Source: Culturomica sp.
GTDB taxonomy: Bacteria > Bacteroidota > Bacteroidia > Bacteroidales > Marinifilaceae
Length of the DNA: 64,000 nucleotides
Assembly: GCA_031262745.1 (NCBI GenBank)
Contig: JAISHE010000005.1
Span: 27,519-91,518 of the forward strand
Direction: 5' to 3'
The position numbers were made by a program, and so were the translations under genes. Numbering within the stretch: the first letter of the stretch is position 1; every line of letters starts with the position of its first letter. Positions 47,851-64,000 of the stretch are shown piece by piece. The notes beneath the pieces were generated by a model that saw only the letters and a list, made by a program, of their open reading frames with translations, was not told where the DNA came from and ran no database searches.

Positions 47851-49026
47851 ATGTATTCAAAAAAACACAGTTACATGCTCACCTTAGGGCATTTGTGTAC
47901 GGATCTGAATCAAGGGGCGATTTCTGCCATGCTACCTTTTGTTATAGCTCACTACGGATTTAGTTATGCAAGGGCGTCGATGCTGGTGCTTGGTTGTAGC
48001 ATTGTTTCCTCTGTGGTGCAACCGCTTTTCGGTTGGATGGGCGACCGTTTTCAACGTCCGTGGCTCATGAGTTTAGGTATTTTCCTTGCCGGTTTCGGTA
48101 TTTTTATGATGGGACTTTTCAGCACATTTTTACCTTTATTTTGTTGTACAATGCTCACCGGTGTCGGAATTGCACTGTTTCATCCCGAAGGCGGACGATT
48201 GGCGAATGTGGTGGCAGGAGCTAATAAAGGTACGGGCATTGGTAACTTTGCTGTTGGAGGTAATCTTGGTTTTGCGGTGGGTCCGTTGCTGGTGGCACTA
48301 ACATTTCCTTATCTCGGTATGCGCGGAGCATTAATTTTTATTATTCCCGCTCTGATTGCATCGGTGTTGTTGCTAACTCAGAACCGTAAATTTACCGAAC
48401 TCAGTGTTCTTGAAGAGAAACGTAAGAAAAAAGCGGGTGAACTCGGTTTGAAGGATAATTGGCGAGAGTTTTGGAAGGTAACCACCGTCAACATTATGCG
48501 TTCCGTTATTTCCCGCAGTCATTTGGTTTTCATACCATTATTTTGGGTTGCAATCTTCAATCAAAGCGATGCCAACGGTGCTATGATGATTACGATTTTC
48601 ACATTTGTGGGGGCGTTTGCCACGTTCTTAGGCGGACGTATTGCCGACCGTATAGGCTTCAAAAATGAAATTATCATTTGTGGGGTATTGATGACGTTAA
48701 GTATCTTCGGTTTCCTTTTTGCACAAAATATTATTTTGGCAGGCATACTTGTTATACTGACATCTGTTTTCATAAATCTTGCTTACAGTCCCATTGTGGC
48801 ACTTTCACAAGGTTATTTGCCCAACCACATCGGTTTGGCAAGCGGCATATCTCTTGGGGTGGTGGTTAGCATGGGGGCGGTAGCAGCTCCGTTTCTCGGA
48901 ATGGTCGGAGATGCACACGGTTTGCTCACCGTGTTTGTAATAATCTGTATAGTAAGTTTTGTATCCCTTGTATTTTCGTTATTCTTGAAAAACGACAAAG
49001 CAGTATCGTCATCCTCCGGTCGCTGA
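47851..49026 (+). CDS. MFS transporter, fosmidomycin-resistance (Fsr)-like
   Basis: 12-TM MFS, LTLGHLCTDLNQGAISAMLPF, TGVGIALFHPEGGRLANVV; last residues and stop lie in a repeat hairpin. Confidence 0.85.
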   Translation: MYSKKHSYMLTLGHLCTDLNQGAISAMLPFVIAHYGFSYARASMLVLGCSIVSSVVQPLFGWMGDRFQRPWLMSLGIFLAGFGIFMMGLFSTFLPLFCCTMLTGVGIALFHPEGGRLANVVAGANKGTGIGNFAVGGNLGFAVGPLLVALTFPYLGMRGALIFIIPALIASVLLLTQNRKFTELSVLEEKRKKKAGELGLKDNWREFWKVTTVNIMRSVISRSHLVFIPLFWVAIFNQSDANGAMMITIFTFVGAFATFLGGRIADRIGFKNEIIICGVLMTLSIFGFLFAQNIILAGILVILTSVFINLAYSPIVALSQGYLPNHIGLASGISLGVVVSMGAVAAPFLGMVGDAHGLLTVFVIICIVSFVSLVFSLFLKNDKAVSSSSGR

Positions 49027-49424
49027 CCGGATATGTTGTAGGGGCGTATGGCATACGCCCGAAAAATTAACAATGGATTGAAATGCCCCAGTAATGTCGC
49101 CAACCCTCGTAGGGGCAACCCTTGTGGTTGCCCATTGTTTGTTATCCCATTGTTATTTTGGGCAACCACAAGGGTTGCCCCTACGATTGACAATGGGTTT
49201 AAACCCATTGTTATTGTATGGAATACGCCCAAACGATGTACGGGCGGGGTCTGCCCGCCCAATTGAAAACGGGGCGGGCGAACCCCGCCCCTACGAGGAC
49301 ACCGCCAACACGGATTATTCGGATGTACGGGCGTTGCATGCAACGCCCGATGATGATGTCGGTGTATATTGTAGGGGCGTATACCATACGCCCCTACAAT
49401 ATATCCGGTCGCTGACCGGAGGAT
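49011..49424. mobile_element. cluster B: 414-bp MITE-like unit with 50-bp terminal inverted repeats and nested palindromes
   Basis: 49011-49060 matches the reverse complement of 49375-49424 at 45 of 50 positions by hand alignment; internal perfect 27-bp inverted repeat 49108-49134 / 49159-49185. Confidence 0.7.
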
Positions 49425-49425
49425 G

Positions 49426-49740
49426 TCCACTAATTTTACAATTGAGTGCACTAATTTTGGAAATTAGTCTACTAATTTTGCGATTGAGTACACTAATTTT
49501 AGAAATTAGTCCACTAATTTTACGATTGAGTGCACTAACTTTGGAAATTAGTCTACTAATTTTGCGATTGAGTACACTAATTTTAGAAATTAGTCCACTA
49601 ATTTTACGATTGAGTGCACTAACTTTGGAAATTAGTCCACTAATTTTACGATTGAGTGCACTAACTTTGGAAATTAGTCCACTAATTTTGCGATTGAGTA
49701 TACTAATTTTGGAAATTAGTCCACTAATTTTAGAAATTTT
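49426..49740. repeat. 21-bp minisatellite, 15 units, 42/84-bp higher-order pattern
   Basis: Alternating TCCACTAATTTTACGATTGAG and TGCACTAACTTTGGAAATTAG units at exact 21-bp spacing. Confidence 0.97.
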
Positions 49741-49794
49741 AGACACACATTTTGAGCATATATATAAAGATTTTATGTAAGTTTGTAGTGTTTT

Positions 49795-50805
49795 ATGAAA
49801 TCTATGAGTAATAACAGGAATATATCTTTAACGGATTACAATTCTTTTCGCACATCAGCATTTGCAAAGTTCTTTTGCGAACCCCAAAGTATCACCGAAA
49901 TCAAATCATGCTTGCAATTACATGCCGCTGAGGACAAATTAATCATCGGAGGCGGTTGCAATTTGTTTTTCACTAAGGATTTTGAGGGACTTGTGGTGCA
50001 TCCTTTATTAAAGGGCGTAGCGAAGCTTTCGGAAACGGCTGATTGGGTAGATGTGGAGGCGATGGCAGGCGAGAATTGGGACGATTTCGTGAAACAATGT
50101 GTTGATGCGGGTTATGCGGGTTTGGAAAACTTGTCTTTGATACCGGGTACGGTGGGTGCAGCTCCGGTTCAAAACATCGGTGCCTACGGAGCGGAAGCGA
50201 AAGACTGTATTTTGGAGGTGAAGACTTTGAATATGTCGGATCTCGGTTTGCGTAGCTTTTCAAATGAGGAATGCAGGTTCGATTATCGTGAGAGTTTTTT
50301 CAAGTATAATCGTGAGTTTTTGATTACGTCCGTTGTTTTCCGTTTGTATAAGAATTTCAATTATCAACCGAGATACAAGGAACTTAACGAGGAATTAAGT
50401 ATGTTCCCCTCTCCCACTTTGCAACAGGTTAGAGATGCCGTCATCACCATTCGCCGGCGCAAGTTGCCCGATGAGCGGGAATTGCCTAATGCAGGTTCGT
50501 TCTTTAAAAACCCTTATATAAGCAAGGAAAAGGTTGAGGAGTTGTCCGGCAATTATCCTAATCTGCCCGTTTTTCCCACTGCCGACGGCAACAGTTACAA
50601 AACGTCGGCAGCTTTTTTGATTGATAAGGCGGGATTTAAGGGTGTGAGAGACGGAAATGTGGGCACATATTCCAAACAACCTTTGATAATAGTAAACTAC
50701 GGCACTCCCAACGGTAAAAACATTGTGGCATTTATGCACAAAATTCAAGAAAACGTAGAGAGGTTATTCGGAATAAAATTGGAACCGGAAGTAAGAATTT
50801 TATAA
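49795..50805 (+). CDS. murB: UDP-N-acetylenolpyruvoylglucosamine reductase
   Basis: LIIGGGCNLFF...ENLSLIPGTVGAAPVQNIGAYGAE...ELPNAGSFFKNP. Confidence 0.95.
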   Translation: MKSMSNNRNISLTDYNSFRTSAFAKFFCEPQSITEIKSCLQLHAAEDKLIIGGGCNLFFTKDFEGLVVHPLLKGVAKLSETADWVDVEAMAGENWDDFVKQCVDAGYAGLENLSLIPGTVGAAPVQNIGAYGAEAKDCILEVKTLNMSDLGLRSFSNEECRFDYRESFFKYNREFLITSVVFRLYKNFNYQPRYKELNEELSMFPSPTLQQVRDAVITIRRRKLPDERELPNAGSFFKNPYISKEKVEELSGNYPNLPVFPTADGNSYKTSAAFLIDKAGFKGVRDGNVGTYSKQPLIIVNYGTPNGKNIVAFMHKIQENVERLFGIKLEPEVRIL

Positions 50806-55159: not shown

Positions 55160-55650
55160 GGGCGGGCTTGAAATCCGCCCCGATAATGTACGGGCGTATG
55201 CCATACGCCCGAAAACACTCTCTCGGCAAGGGATTTTGACAATGGGTTTAAACCCATTGTTATTTGCTACTATAATGGCATATATGGCTTCCGTAGGAAG
55301 CGCAGTTTAGTAACCAGCCGGCTTGTCGGCTGGCAAGGCTGGCGTATGCCCTACGGAACCCCCGCCCACAAAAAAAGCAGATGAACATTGTTCTTGCTTC
55401 ATAAACCTCAAACACTTACTAAAAAAGTTTAATCCGCTCGGACAAAAGTCCATCTGCCTGTTGCTACCTCATCAGAGGCGTGATACCATACGCTCTCCGG
55501 CGTCTCCCTTAGGTCGCTGACCTAAGGTTATGAAAATCAGGCTCTGCGAGCCGACCCCGACATCATCGGGCGTATACCATACGCCCCTACATATTCGCCC
55601 GAAGGGCGACATCTTCATAACCGTAGTGTCAAGCGAAGCGCGACCTACGG
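55156..55650. repeat. cluster C of modular GC-rich hairpin repeats
   Basis: GTAGGGGCGGGCTTGAAATCCGCCCC, GGGCGTATGCCATACGCCC, CAATGGGTTTAAACCCATTG, CCTTAGGTCGCTGACCTAAGG, GGCTCTGCGAGCC, CGCCCGAAGGGCG. Confidence 0.9.
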
Positions 55651-56283
55651 CTCTCTTTCGCCTTTGGTGTTTTGCCAAGCGAGGGCAAAATAGACAACCT
55701 TCCCGCGCTGTTCTTCTTCAAAATCCAACGTTATAGGCGATTTTGTATCCAATAACGAATTTGTAAACACTTTTATACTTGTGGGTGGCGTGTCGCTCAC
55801 TATCCACTTCACCACTGCTCCCTGAACTCCGGCGGGTTTTGCGCGGTGGTCGCTGCCCGAATCGCGGAAAGAAACGCTGATGCAGCGAACTGTGTTGCGG
55901 TCAATACCCGTTACGTCGGGAACTGTGTCGGGTACGGGTACAGGCGTGCGAGTTGACTTGTGCAACGGTAAGCCCATAGCTGCCTTATCTTCGTCGCTAA
56001 CCTTAGGATTGTAGGTGATATAAGACTTTAGCAACAATCTGAGTTGCTTTTCATACGCTTTGCGGGCTGATTTCTTTGCCTGCACGGCTACGCTTGTCTT
56101 CGTTGCCGGGTTCTCAACTACAGAATATGCCGCTTCCCACTTAGCTCTAAGTGCTGCTATTTCAGCAACAACATCTGCGGGAATGACCCATAATTCTGCA
56201 TTTTCTTCAACTGCGTTTACAACAACACTCTGGAAAGTGTTGAATTGGGCATCTGCGCCCGGGATAAAATCCGTTGTACTCAT
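55645..56283 (-). CDS. hypothetical protein, apparently truncated at the C-terminus by a repeat module
   Basis: MSTTDFIPGADAQFNTFQSVVVNAVEENAELWVIPADVVAEIAALRAKWEAAYSV...FALAWQNTKGEREP; the tool's longer N-terminus is the 21-bp repeat array read as codons. Confidence 0.65.
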   Translation of the reverse strand: MSTTDFIPGADAQFNTFQSVVVNAVEENAELWVIPADVVAEIAALRAKWEAAYSVVENPATKTSVAVQAKKSARKAYEKQLRLLLKSYITYNPKVSDEDKAAMGLPLHKSTRTPVPVPDTVPDVTGIDRNTVRCISVSFRDSGSDHRAKPAGVQGAVVKWIVSDTPPTSIKVFTNSLLDTKSPITLDFEEEQRGKVVYFALAWQNTKGEREP

Positions 56284-56368
56284 AATGCTAACTATTAGTT
56301 GTTTATATAAAATTCTGCCCACAATTCGGGCGAGTTTGAAATACTCTTTGGATGTTTCGCCGAACTTT

Positions 56369-56494
56369 GAATTGTACAATTGAGCCGGTGAATTGTGCAA
56401 TTGAGTCAATGAATTGTACAATTGAGCCGGTGAATTGTACAATTGAGTCTTTGAATTGTACAAGCGAGTCAATGAATTGTACAATTGAGCTGCT
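56369..56494. repeat. 21-bp tandem repeat, 6 units with palindromic core AATTGTACAATT
   Basis: GAATTGTACAATTGAGYCRRT units starting at 56369, 56390, 56411, 56432, 56453, 56474. Confidence 0.97.
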
Positions 56495-56534
56495 CGCCGG
56501 CATAAATCTATAACTCAATGTTTCCATTATTGAT

Positions 56535-58814
56535 CTAATTCATCAAACAACGGACGCGGAAGCCATACGACTTAGTGTAGTTGGTACGGTAGACCATAGT
56601 ATCATCGTGGTGCAGATTCCGGAGCCACGCAGTGGAGGAACTATTCTCTGATGACGACCACCAGTGTCCGTTCGTGCCAACGTCGTAGAACGTACCACCG
56701 GAGTTACTCCGGTAGCCACCTGGGCGCCCGTCCCAACCCGAAGTGTTAGTGCCCGAAGTAGAAGCATTGACTGTCCACAAATTAGTACTCTTTAATTCGC
56801 GACCCTCATCTGTACCACGATAACCCGTAGTGTTTGCTTGTGCCTCTGTCATCCCAAGATACATTTCCAAAGTCTTAAACTCCGCATCGCTCGGAACATG
56901 CCAACCATCGGGACAAATGCCCTGTGTATGACCTGAACCATCTACAGCGTATTTCTTATTAAAGTCCGTTGCCGTATTGATTGCGCCCGAAGCTACATTT
57001 TCGCCGTTAACTGCCTCTGCCCAATTATAAAGTCCACCGTAAGTTGTGCAATTATTTTCATCATTACTATAACATATCTTTTGAATGCCGGCTCGTTGAT
57101 GAGTAGAGTAATCCGTGTTGGCTACACGTTCACCTATATTCATATTCTTCGTCATCCAACACTGGGTGCCGATTTGAAGAATCGGATAAACCTTACTATC
57201 GCGACTATCTGTAAAACTCTTACCGTCTAAACTAAACCACGGCTTCATAGGACTTACCGCCAGTGTTAAATTAGCATTATTATTGCAACCGGCAACGTTT
57301 ACTGTACATGTAACCACTTGATTTCCTTCAGTTGAGGTACTATTGGCAAAATCGCTGTAAGAAGGCGTATAGCTGGCTCCGGTTTTAGTTATAATCTCGT
57401 TTTCCCATGTGAACGTTGGAGTTGTTGCAGTATAAGGGACACTCGCTTTCACTGTCGTATGTACACAAGAATTAACTTTGCCGGTTACAGGACTAAACGA
57501 AATTGTAAGATTAGGTATGGTTGTTGTAACAATTACCGAAGCTTCGCCCAGAGCCGTGATAGCTTTGCGCTTAAACTTCAAAGCCAAACTCGCTCCGCTA
57601 AAACTTCCTTGAACGTAGGTTACCGACTCCGAAATTTCATTTGGTAGCAACTCCCAAACTGTTGAACTGCCCTTTTGAACATACCAAACATAACTCACTT
57701 TTGTATCCACCGCAGCACCATTCCACGTTGCGCTTCCCCTGACACTGTCGGAAACTATTATCTCTGCATCAAGACAGTTTATTGATGCAACTTTGATTAT
57801 GCCCGGATTTACTACCACGCTACTACTGCCAAACGTGTGAACTGCACGAAAACCCATTGTATTGTCTATTGTGTCGGTAACGGTGGCTCTCGTCCTGTCC
57901 GAAATCTTTAACTCATCGGTATTTGTGCTCGAAAAACTTCCGCCCTTAGCGATAAAAGAAGCGGCTGTATTTGCCCAAATACTTGCGGCAATGTCGCTTG
58001 TTCCGTTTGCGTTTATTGCGCCGTTGCCGTGAGAAGCGTAAATATCGGAAGTGTTGAAATTGCTGCCGGCATCAACGGAATAACAAAGTTCAGCTACGTT
58101 TCCGCTCATCTCCATCAAACCCCAAAACGTTGCTCCTGCCTGAGCCTGAGTTGAACTCGCAGTGCCAAATGAGGCACTGCGAACAGGTCCCAAATCAGCG
58201 TTGTTATAATTGACGTTAGTTGCAGCTGAAGAAGGCTGCTCATTGACTCTGCCGGCGTTGAGCAAAGAACCCGCTCCACTCAAACCGTTAATGCCGCTTG
58301 CAGAGTTCCAAACAAACTCGCCCGAAAGAGACTGCTGAGGATAAGGTATACGACAAGCCTTTTCATATTCCAACTCGCTCATTGGGCGAAGGCAGGCGTA
58401 ATCGCAATAAGCCAACACATCGGCAGAAGTCAAATAATTGCAAGCTATACATTTGCCATCATCCTCGCCGAAATAAGGCTCTGCGGGATTAAGATTGCAA
58501 CCGAAAACTGCAGGCTTACCCGAAAGATTGGAAAGAACGCAAATGCCGTTGCGATAGCTTGGACGCGATTTATCGCCGAAAACGTACTCTCCTACCTTTA
58601 ACTTATCAAGATCATTTCCTATGCGTGCTTTTTGCTGATCACGAGTAAGATTGTTGAGAAAACTTACATACTGTTCCTGACTAACTTCGTATTTCATGCA
58701 ATAGAAACCCTTATACCCTTTGGGATACGTGGCAGGCAAACTTTTCGCTGCACCTTCACTTCCGCCTGTAATGGGATAAACATTCATAGCATCTTCGCTG
58801 TTCACGGCAATCAT
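56535..58814 (-). CDS. FGE-sulfatase-like plus Fibrobacter succinogenes major paralogous (FISUMP) domain protein, 5'-truncated
   Basis: KGFYCMKYEVSQEQYVSFLNNL...GNVAELCYS...GGSFSS; C-terminal ICPDGWHVPSDAEFKTLEMYLGM...YGFRVRCLMN; no signal peptide although the frame stays open upstream to 58892. Confidence 0.75.
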   Translation of the reverse strand: MIAVNSEDAMNVYPITGGSEGAAKSLPATYPKGYKGFYCMKYEVSQEQYVSFLNNLTRDQQKARIGNDLDKLKVGEYVFGDKSRPSYRNGICVLSNLSGKPAVFGCNLNPAEPYFGEDDGKCIACNYLTSADVLAYCDYACLRPMSELEYEKACRIPYPQQSLSGEFVWNSASGINGLSGAGSLLNAGRVNEQPSSAATNVNYNNADLGPVRSASFGTASSTQAQAGATFWGLMEMSGNVAELCYSVDAGSNFNTSDIYASHGNGAINANGTSDIAASIWANTAASFIAKGGSFSSTNTDELKISDRTRATVTDTIDNTMGFRAVHTFGSSSVVVNPGIIKVASINCLDAEIIVSDSVRGSATWNGAAVDTKVSYVWYVQKGSSTVWELLPNEISESVTYVQGSFSGASLALKFKRKAITALGEASVIVTTTIPNLTISFSPVTGKVNSCVHTTVKASVPYTATTPTFTWENEIITKTGASYTPSYSDFANSTSTEGNQVVTCTVNVAGCNNNANLTLAVSPMKPWFSLDGKSFTDSRDSKVYPILQIGTQCWMTKNMNIGERVANTDYSTHQRAGIQKICYSNDENNCTTYGGLYNWAEAVNGENVASGAINTATDFNKKYAVDGSGHTQGICPDGWHVPSDAEFKTLEMYLGMTEAQANTTGYRGTDEGRELKSTNLWTVNASTSGTNTSGWDGRPGGYRSNSGGTFYDVGTNGHWWSSSENSSSTAWLRNLHHDDTMVYRTNYTKSYGFRVRCLMN

Positions 58815-59256: not shown

Positions 59257-59364
59257 AGGTGTAGGTATAAGTGTAGGTATAAGTGTAGGTATAAGTGTAG
59301 GTATAAGTGTAGGTATAAGTTGGAGACTAAGTTGTAGACTAAGTCTTAGACTAAGTGGAGTTAG
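59257..59364. repeat. 12-bp tandem repeat, 9 units (AAGTGTAGGTAT changing to AAGTTGTAGACT)
   Basis: Unit starts at exact 12-bp spacing from 59257 to 59353. Confidence 0.95.
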
Positions 59365-62016: not shown

Positions 62017-64000
62017 ATGAGAAAAAGTATTTTAAATTACATTACGATTATTGTTGCACTTATACTTTTGGCAGATTGCTCGTCTAAGGATACGGAAATA
62101 GCGGAGCCGAGCAGCATCTACGGCGTAGTTAGTGATAAAGCAACGGGAGAGCCTGTAAGTTCGGCAGGAGTTTCTTTAAGTCCCACAGGAGCAAAGACCG
62201 TAACAGGGAGCGAGGGGCAGTATGAGTTTGCCGAATTGGAAGCGGGTGCTTATAAAATCAATGTAACCAAAGCGGGTTATAAAGACCTGATTAATTGGGC
62301 TATCAATGTTAGGGAAGGCAAAACCCATAAGGGTGATGTGCAGATAGAGAGAATACCTGCTGTGTTGCGAGTTGCTAACAGTAACGGTGTTGATATTGAC
62401 ACGCTTGATCTTGGTAGCAGTGCAGGCGTTACCACTGCCAACTTCAATATCTTTAACGACGGTGTGGTTGTTTTGGAGTGGAGCATAGTGGAAAACAGTG
62501 ATTGGATCACTGATGTGAGCGCAACGGAAGGCACCCTTGAATCAGGCAAAACGCAGGGAATAATCATCACCATAGACCGCAGCAAGCTTCTGTCAGGAGT
62601 CAACGTTACCAAACTCAATATTAATTCTAACGCCGGCAGTAAGGAAATAACCGTTAGGGTAATGGATACACGTCCTTTGGTGAGCGTGGAGAATGCGACA
62701 AATATATCTACCACAACGGCAACATTGAACGGAACGATCTTGTTCGCAGGTACACCTATGTATACCGAAAGGGGTTTTGTGTATGATACATTGCCTGAGC
62801 CTACTTTGGCAACTACCCAAAAGAAGGTTTCACTCACATCTACCGCAGGCGACAGCTATTCCGCCGGTATAACAGATCTACATCAGGGCACCAAATACTA
62901 TGTGCGGGCTTATGCCGTTAACGTATCCGGCACGTCATACAGCACGAATGAAGTGGATTTCACCACGCAAGTGTTGCTGCCTACTTTGACAACCCAAGCT
63001 GCAACCGACAAAAACGTAGCCGCCGGCACTGCCACTTTTAACGGTACAATCCTGACCGTAGGAGATCCTGCTTACACGGAGCGCGGTTTTGTGTATGGGC
63101 TTAATTTAAATCCCACCACTAACAATACGAAAAAGACAGTAGCCGGCACAGGTGTCGGCACTTTCAATGCAGGTATTGACTCACTCACCGAAGGCAATGT
63201 TTATCATATTCGTTCCTACGCTATAAATATGGCAGGCACTGCTTACGGCAACGACACCACTTTAAATTTTGTTATTACAATGCCCACCGTTAGCACACAG
63301 AATATAACCAACCAAAGTATAGCCACCGGCACTGCCACATTCAACGGTACACTTGTCTCCGTCGGTGACTTGCCTATAACCGAGCGTGGTTTTGTATATG
63401 CTACAACAGCAAATCCTACACTTGACAATAGCAAGGTTATAGCTACCGGCACGGGTACGGGAGCTTTCAATGCAAACGTAACAGGTCTAACGGAAGGCAG
63501 CACTTATCACGTTAGAGCTTATGCCACCAACAGCAAGGGCACTGTGTACGGAGAGGGAATCTCATTTGCTTTTATAGCCACACTACCTAAGGTTAGCACT
63601 CAGGCAGTAACCAACAGAGACATTGTTGCCGGCACCGCTACATTCAACGGTACGCTTATAACCGTCGGCGACCCTGCCTGCACGGAGCGCGGTTTTGTTT
63701 ATTCCACCACAGCAAATCCTACTCTTGACGATAGCAAGGTTATAGCCACCGGCACAGGTACGGGAGCGTTCAATGCAAACGTAACAGGTCTAACGGAGGG
63801 CAGCACTTATCACGTTAGAGCTTATGCCACCAACAGTAACAGCACTGTGTATGGCGAAGAAGTAAGCGTGGATTTCAATGCCGTCATGCCTACAGTGAGC
63901 ACTCAGGCGGTAACAAACAAAGATATTGTTGCCGGTACTGCCACTTTCAACGGCACCATTCTAACCGCAGGTAACCTTGAAATTACGGAGCGCGGCTTTG
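62017..64000 (+). CDS. large lipoprotein: carboxypeptidase-regulatory-like domain, BACON-like domain and tandem FN3-like repeats; 3' end outside the window
   Basis: ATG at 62017 (absent from the ORF track because it has no stop): MRKSILNYITIIVALILLADCSSKDTEIAEPSSIYGVVSDKATGEPVSSAGVSLSP..., then repeated ERGFVY...TYHVRAYATNS units. Confidence 0.85.
   Translation, partial: MRKSILNYITIIVALILLADCSSKDTEIAEPSSIYGVVSDKATGEPVSSAGVSLSPTGAKTVTGSEGQYEFAELEAGAYKINVTKAGYKDLINWAINVREGKTHKGDVQIERIPAVLRVANSNGVDIDTLDLGSSAGVTTANFNIFNDGVVVLEWSIVENSDWITDVSATEGTLESGKTQGIIITIDRSKLLSGVNVTKLNINSNAGSKEITVRVMDTRPLVSVENATNISTTTATLNGTILFAGTPMYTERGFVYDTLPEPTLATTQKKVSLTSTAGDSYSAGITDLHQGTKYYVRAYAVNVSGTSYSTNEVDFTTQVLLPTLTTQAATDKNVAAGTATFNGTILTVGDPAYTERGFVYGLNLNPTTNNTKKTVAGTGVGTFNAGIDSLTEGNVYHIRSYAINMAGTAYGNDTTLNFVITMPTVSTQNITNQSIATGTATFNGTLVSVGDLPITERGFVYATTANPTLDNSKVIATGTGTGAFNANVTGLTEGSTYHVRAYATNSKGTVYGEGISFAFIATLPKVSTQAVTNRDIVAGTATFNGTLITVGDPACTERGFVYSTTANPTLDDSKVIATGTGTGAFNANVTGLTEGSTYHVRAYATNSNSTVYGEEVSVDFNAVMPTVSTQAVTNKDIVAGTATFNGTILTAGNLEITERGF

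Follow-up and report, generated by a model that had tools for sequence, protein, structure and literature searches.

The array that we studied lies in a 64,000-nucleotide stretch of a Culturomica sp. genome (the window), between a gene for an MFS transporter and murB (Table 1). On its left it adjoins a hairpin-rich composite resembling a MITE, whose arms (49010-49072 and 49363-49425) are 84% complementary. The composite abuts the array directly, without the 2-bp gap that had been noted between them. Hairpin elements of this type are abundant and modular, with 128 partial matches genome-wide, often at contig ends. On its right, the array ends 55 to 60 bp before the first murB ATG (49795), close to the 55 bp given earlier. 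A possible murB promoter, of the Bacteroidota type as judged by its match to the consensus, is formed by TTTTG (49750-49754) and TAAGTTTG (49778-49785) on the + strand, with slightly long spacing. The MurB protein matches a genome from a different family of the order at 57% and the genomes compared from its own family at no more than 45%, a sequence pattern that may possibly reflect horizontal transfer or misplacement. The window also holds a second 21-bp array, a 12-bp repeat tract (59259-59360) and a two-copy repeat of 303 bp (63326-63967).

Table 1. Features around the two 21-bp arrays, in window coordinates
Feature	Position	Strand	Remarks
MFS transporter, upstream	47851..49026	+	Pfam MFS_1
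Hairpin-rich MITE-like composite	49010..49425	.	GTAGGGGCG/CGCCCCTAC modules; adjoins array
21-bp minisatellite, family F1, 15 units	49426..49740	.	alternating A (ACTAATTTTRCGATTGAGTNN) and B (ACTAAYTTTRGAAATTAGTNN)
Ladder of 14 junction dyads TKAGT-NN-ACTAA	49443..49726	.	exact 21-bp spacing; conserved core of F1
murB (UDP-N-acetylenolpyruvoylglucosamine reductase)	49795..50805	+	Pfam MurB_C and FAD_binding_4
DFIPG-family gene (MSTTDFIPGADAQFN...)	55645..56283	-	without Pfam family; downstream partner of FISUMP-array cassettes
Second 21-bp array, family F2	56368..56490	.	TGAATTGTACAATTGAGNNNN, 5.9 units
Single-copy 21-mer homologue ATTTATGCCGGCGAGCAGCTC	56487..56507 (approximate)	-	17/21 to L096 unit; partly overlaps array edge
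FISUMP gene	56535..58814	-	Fib_succ_major and FGE-sulfatase domains; 3' end matches DGR template repeat, contig C3

The murB array and its family

TRF called the murB array as a 42-bp unit repeated 7.3 times (49425-49732; 90% matches, 0% indels). Its self-identity was 0.70 at lag 21, 0.89 at lag 42 and 0.93 at lag 84. Among 500 dinucleotide shuffles, no lag between 10 and 99 gave an identity above 0.42; therefore, the periodicity is far beyond chance. The original prediction of a minisatellite of 15 units in exact 21-bp register, with 42- and 84-bp higher order, was confirmed by cutting the array from 49426, the last unit being degenerate. The A-B-A'-B' order of 84 bp holds for about the first ten units only, and from 49594 on the array is a plain A-B repeat of 42 bp. 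Similarly, the palindrome with 8-bp arms described for the B units, ACTAATTT-NNG-AAATTAGT, is perfect in four of them (49447, 49489, 49573 and 49699; loop TGG or TAG) but has one mismatch in three ACTAAC units (49531, 49615 and 49657). The units stand head-to-tail with no spacers, and a CRISPR identity was rejected. The array folds strongly as single-stranded DNA and RNA (z of -6.3 and -7.8), but we set this aside as evidence because any tandem palindrome folds well.

A search of the organism's own genome (2.12 Mb, 78 contigs) placed the murB array in a family of nine arrays, F1, with further members on several contigs. Over the nine arrays and their 85 units, the conserved columns are a dyad at the unit junction, TKAGT-NN-ACTAA, and the T-run that follows it, whereas neither the unit centre nor the NN is conserved. 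The junction dyad, and not the palindrome of the B units, is thus the more constant core across related arrays. The column majority was 0.91 at dyad positions and 0.67 elsewhere (permutation p 0.0015), with a slight bias in favor of the dyad because it was used to phase the columns. When spacing was left free at 4 to 30 nt, all 54 pairs of neighboring F1 dyads in the genome were in 21-bp register, 51 of them at a distance of one unit and the other 3 with a decayed unit between them. The helical phasing proposed from the period of the murB array is strongly borne out by this register and by the 32 arrays of many sequences that have the same period, described below.

Iteron-type and operator arrays space their dyads by whole helical turns. 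F1 has a constant dyad at such a spacing, and in this it is operator- or iteron-like, which applies to F1 and not to all the families. Given the conserved dyad columns, F1 may plausibly be a protein-binding array. Unlike iteron or operator arrays, the arrays here have no associated replication or regulator gene, and their sequence is not constant.

The exact double dyad of F1 was found in none of 59 other genomes of the taxonomic family and none of 392 other genomes of the order, and its triple dyad, at spacings of 4 to 30 nt, in none of 294 genomes. A scan of wider genome contigs for the triple dyad, which imposed the 21-bp spacing and is silent on other periods in those genomes, gave five stretches in four genomes. 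Two of the four are Bacteroidia MAGs, Dysgonamonadaceae Cd354_bin49 (12 and 24 units) and Bin_39; their stretches (L032/L035; L036) are seemingly intergenic and their unit centres differ. In coiled-coil genes of Sporosarcina and of a Clostridia MAG (L033, L034), the heptad codons also produce matches to the F1 DNA pattern. Such matches are convergence, and a trap for pattern searches. We found no arrays on plasmids, phages or viral contigs and no relation to Rfam families.

The MITE-like element touches three of the nine F1 arrays, on one side, and the junction is the same in all three. A Cas12a-like gene, probable by eye (the only Pfam match is Cas12f1-like_TNB), stands directly beside an F1 array (L071:636-4532). 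The genome also has a CRISPR with AATTTCTACTATTGTAGAT repeats (L185:7003-7352) and a second CRISPR, of 72- to 76-bp period, on contig C23 (L081:9581-13577).

It had been proposed that the array is a murB-specific operator array or a phase-variable spacer of the promoter. Its position just before murB, beside the possible promoter, and its long phased dyads would fit. However, F1 also lies beside unrelated genes in all orientations. Of the arrays whose neighboring genes are known, 16 lie in co-directional gaps, 5 in divergent gaps and 4 in convergent gaps, compared with 13.9, 7.5 and 3.6 expected from intergenic length. The arrays are placed according to the intergenic space available, with no tie to promoters or terminators. 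Nor is a link specific to murB borne out by arrays that occupy gaps of all orientations in proportion to their length, and we regard a murB operator or spacer as very improbable.

Arrays of 21-bp period across the genome

We examined 1.48 Mb, or 70% of the genome, with a lag scan that uses no sequence pattern. It gave 53 periodic regions, of which 31 had a period of 21 or 42 bp; 11 others were CRISPRs and most of the remainder were coding. In total, this DNA holds at least 32 mostly intergenic arrays of 21- or 42-bp period. Part of it was chosen for carrying F1 or F2 matches, and the unbiased part (the first 20 kb of other contigs, plus remainders) alone gives about 18 such arrays. Excluded from the 32 were L158 (TRF 21/22; hairpin clutter) and L141, whose 42-bp repeat falls within a reverse-transcriptase ORF, in its tail. 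Arrays off the 21-bp rule are rare (L080:258-375 and L084:3572-3648, with periods of 22 and 31 bp). In 400 kb of a genome of the same genus, none of 38 periodic regions had a 21- or 42-bp period, and that genome had no F1 match and no murB match.

The units of the 32 arrays fall into about ten clusters (nine by single linkage at 15/21, with F1 and F2 separable by eye); a tenth cluster in the linkage run was the Dysgonamonadaceae pair. With one representative each, units of different clusters matched at 10.3 of 21 positions, versus 9.9 for shuffled units. Dyad symmetry is clear in only some families. The best candidates for a universal motif or dyad, GANTC and AANNTT, occurred in 7 of 14 families, which is within the null maximum, and GTNNAC occurred in 6 of 14. 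We rejected a universal dyad or motif as not significant once many patterns are allowed for. One period runs through largely unrelated unit families; therefore, what is preserved is the spacing of two helical turns rather than unit sequence or gene neighborhood.

When each array was aligned cyclically to its own consensus, we counted 869 substitutions and 10 indel bases, and 28 of the 32 arrays had no indel. This uncalibrated ratio, from arrays whose TRF boundaries favor indel-free stretches, shows a near-absence of indels that is suggestive of a kept register.

A period of 21 bp is also seven codons, and the arrays could encode small heptad-repeat proteins of coiled-coil type. At least one frame is open across the array in every non-F1 cassette inspected, some of these frames have a nearby ATG (MEKLSYRFM..., MKTSKTFIKSHISS...), and the coiled-coil genes noted above match the F1 DNA pattern. 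In F1, however, the NNA codon at the junction varies at positions 1 and 2 and is fixed at position 3. In five F1 arrays every one of the six frames is interrupted by stops, and synonymous changes in F1 are overall at or below expectation; we ruled out coding heptads for F1 by these stops and the lack of synonymous excess. Among the cassettes, the units of L152 close the frame in which the conserved tail would be read, and most changes in the leaders are non-synonymous. The case against coding is less firm for the cassette arrays (F2, F4 and others); overall, we judge heptad coding improbable.

Turnover of units at fixed flanks

Some arrays share flanks but not units. The arrays at L084 and L176 are bordered by nearly the same DNA, with 96% identity over 169 bp on the left and 84% over 153 bp on the right, and yet their consensus units match at only 10 of 21 positions in the flank-fixed register. 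The unit of L096, amplified five-fold there, is present as a single copy in the leaders of four paralogs, where it is 15 to 18/21 identical. The arrays of those four paralogs are made from neighboring sequence and not from the L096-type 21-mer.

Some of the 21-bp arrays belong to cassettes of FISUMP and DFIPG genes. A 21-bp array stands between the two genes in all six FISUMP-DFIPG pairs found, with five unit families among them, compared with 4 of the 18 FISUMP genes that lack a DFIPG partner (Fisher p 0.0016; the cassettes are paralogous, so the counts are not independent events). About two dozen FISUMP-like ends were found, and ten are followed by 21-bp arrays. A diversity-generating retroelement (DGR) on contig C3 has a reverse-transcriptase ORF (LPIGNLTSQLF) beside its template repeat (L141:9362-9542 / L235:2419-2599), and the mismatches of this repeat to FISUMP 3' ends (window, L094, L152 and L170) are mainly at template adenines. 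A second DGR-like reverse transcriptase (LPIGNLTSQYFAN) is at C64:369-950 (L234), adjoined by an ORF that resembles a putative HRDC-domain accessory protein.

These loci bear on whether the arrays descend neutrally from one ancestral 21-bp satellite, which spread and whose units diverged under concerted evolution, the period surviving by the rarity of indels alone. Chains of partial similarity (15/21 for L084-L167, for L152-L170 and for F1-F2), flanks common to some arrays of different unit, and the hairpin element and junction common to three F1 arrays are in line with such descent. On the other hand, cluster representatives are about as similar as shuffled units, substitutions far exceed indels, and a 96%-identical flank beside units matching at 10/21 is too fast a change for simple drift. 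Neutral descent appears quite unlikely.

Origin and meaning of the 21-bp period

Non-coding minisatellites are spread over this genome, with the murB array as one of them, and what they preserve is the 21-bp register, whereas their unit sequences are replaced. We suggest, tentatively and at a probability of about 40%, that the arrays are helically phased DNA ladders, maintained because a protein binds them cooperatively and with tolerance of sequence, and renewed through local amplification. In this scenario, the arrays would present the same DNA face every two helical turns to this protein, which may be nucleoid-associated or insulator-like. They would grow and become homogeneous through unequal exchange or through slippage, in steps of 21 bp. 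Copies of F1 would have spread by duplication, in three cases along with the adjoining hairpin element, and any effect on murB would be incidental. We identified no candidate for the binding protein.

The main alternative is a mutational lock. Some enzyme system in the lineage would duplicate about two helical turns regardless of sequence, slippage would expand the product, and the arrays would have no function. A constant period in unrelated unit families, the lack of a motif common to all, a 21-mer that is single in one paralog and amplified in another, a spread that mirrors intergenic space, and the absence of the period class from the same-genus sample would all be expected from it. Such a duplication bias would yield much of the same pattern, and we counted this against the ladder. 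However, old arrays have gathered substitutions and hardly any indels, and the dyad columns of F1 are constant between arrays; both point to selection acting once the arrays have formed. Nor did we find an enzyme that would be responsible, the reverse transcriptases that we examined being of DGR and group-II-intron type. A mutational lock seems to us somewhat unlikely, but it comes close to the ladder because there is no universal motif and no known binder.

The nearest known system is BrickBuilt of Porphyromonas gingivalis, with 19 intergenic, non-coding, MITE-linked loci of a 23-bp unit (AGAYCATARTATCCTCTCRTRTG) that cause assembly gaps (PMC4596501). Both are dispersed, non-coding, intergenic minisatellites of Bacteroidota, with units of about 20 bp and linked inverted-repeat elements. 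However, BrickBuilt is one 23-bp family set in a recurrent leader and tail, whereas here the units are of 21 bp, fall into about ten clusters and are unrelated to the BrickBuilt unit by inspection. BrickBuilt is also enclosed by terminal inverted repeats; here the hairpin is one-sided, at three of nine F1 arrays, and no enclosing pair was seen.

A survey of prokaryotic satellites found more than 4 per Mb in only 18 bacteria and termed dispersed non-coding families rare (PMC6749651). The satellites that it describes in Leptospira interrogans and Methanocella conradii are, like these arrays, non-coding, spread through the genome and rare in prokaryotes. They differ in having repeats of more than 30 nt in unit-specific families, whereas here there are about 21 arrays per Mb with one short period. 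We found nothing direct in the literature on a class of minisatellites locked to 21 bp.

Bacterial minisatellites are normally described by their unit sequence. Here, the length is fixed and the sequence is free across most of a genome. It is conceivable, although we hold it doubtful, that one system makes, keeps and replaces arrays of exactly 21 bp regardless of sequence, either a machinery that copies two helical turns or a chromosome-organizing protein that reads spacing. Different units at paralogous loci separate selection or mutation acting on spacing from selection on sequence. The arrays also offer a natural setting in which to ask whether bacterial chromosomes can maintain helical phase as a feature in its own right.
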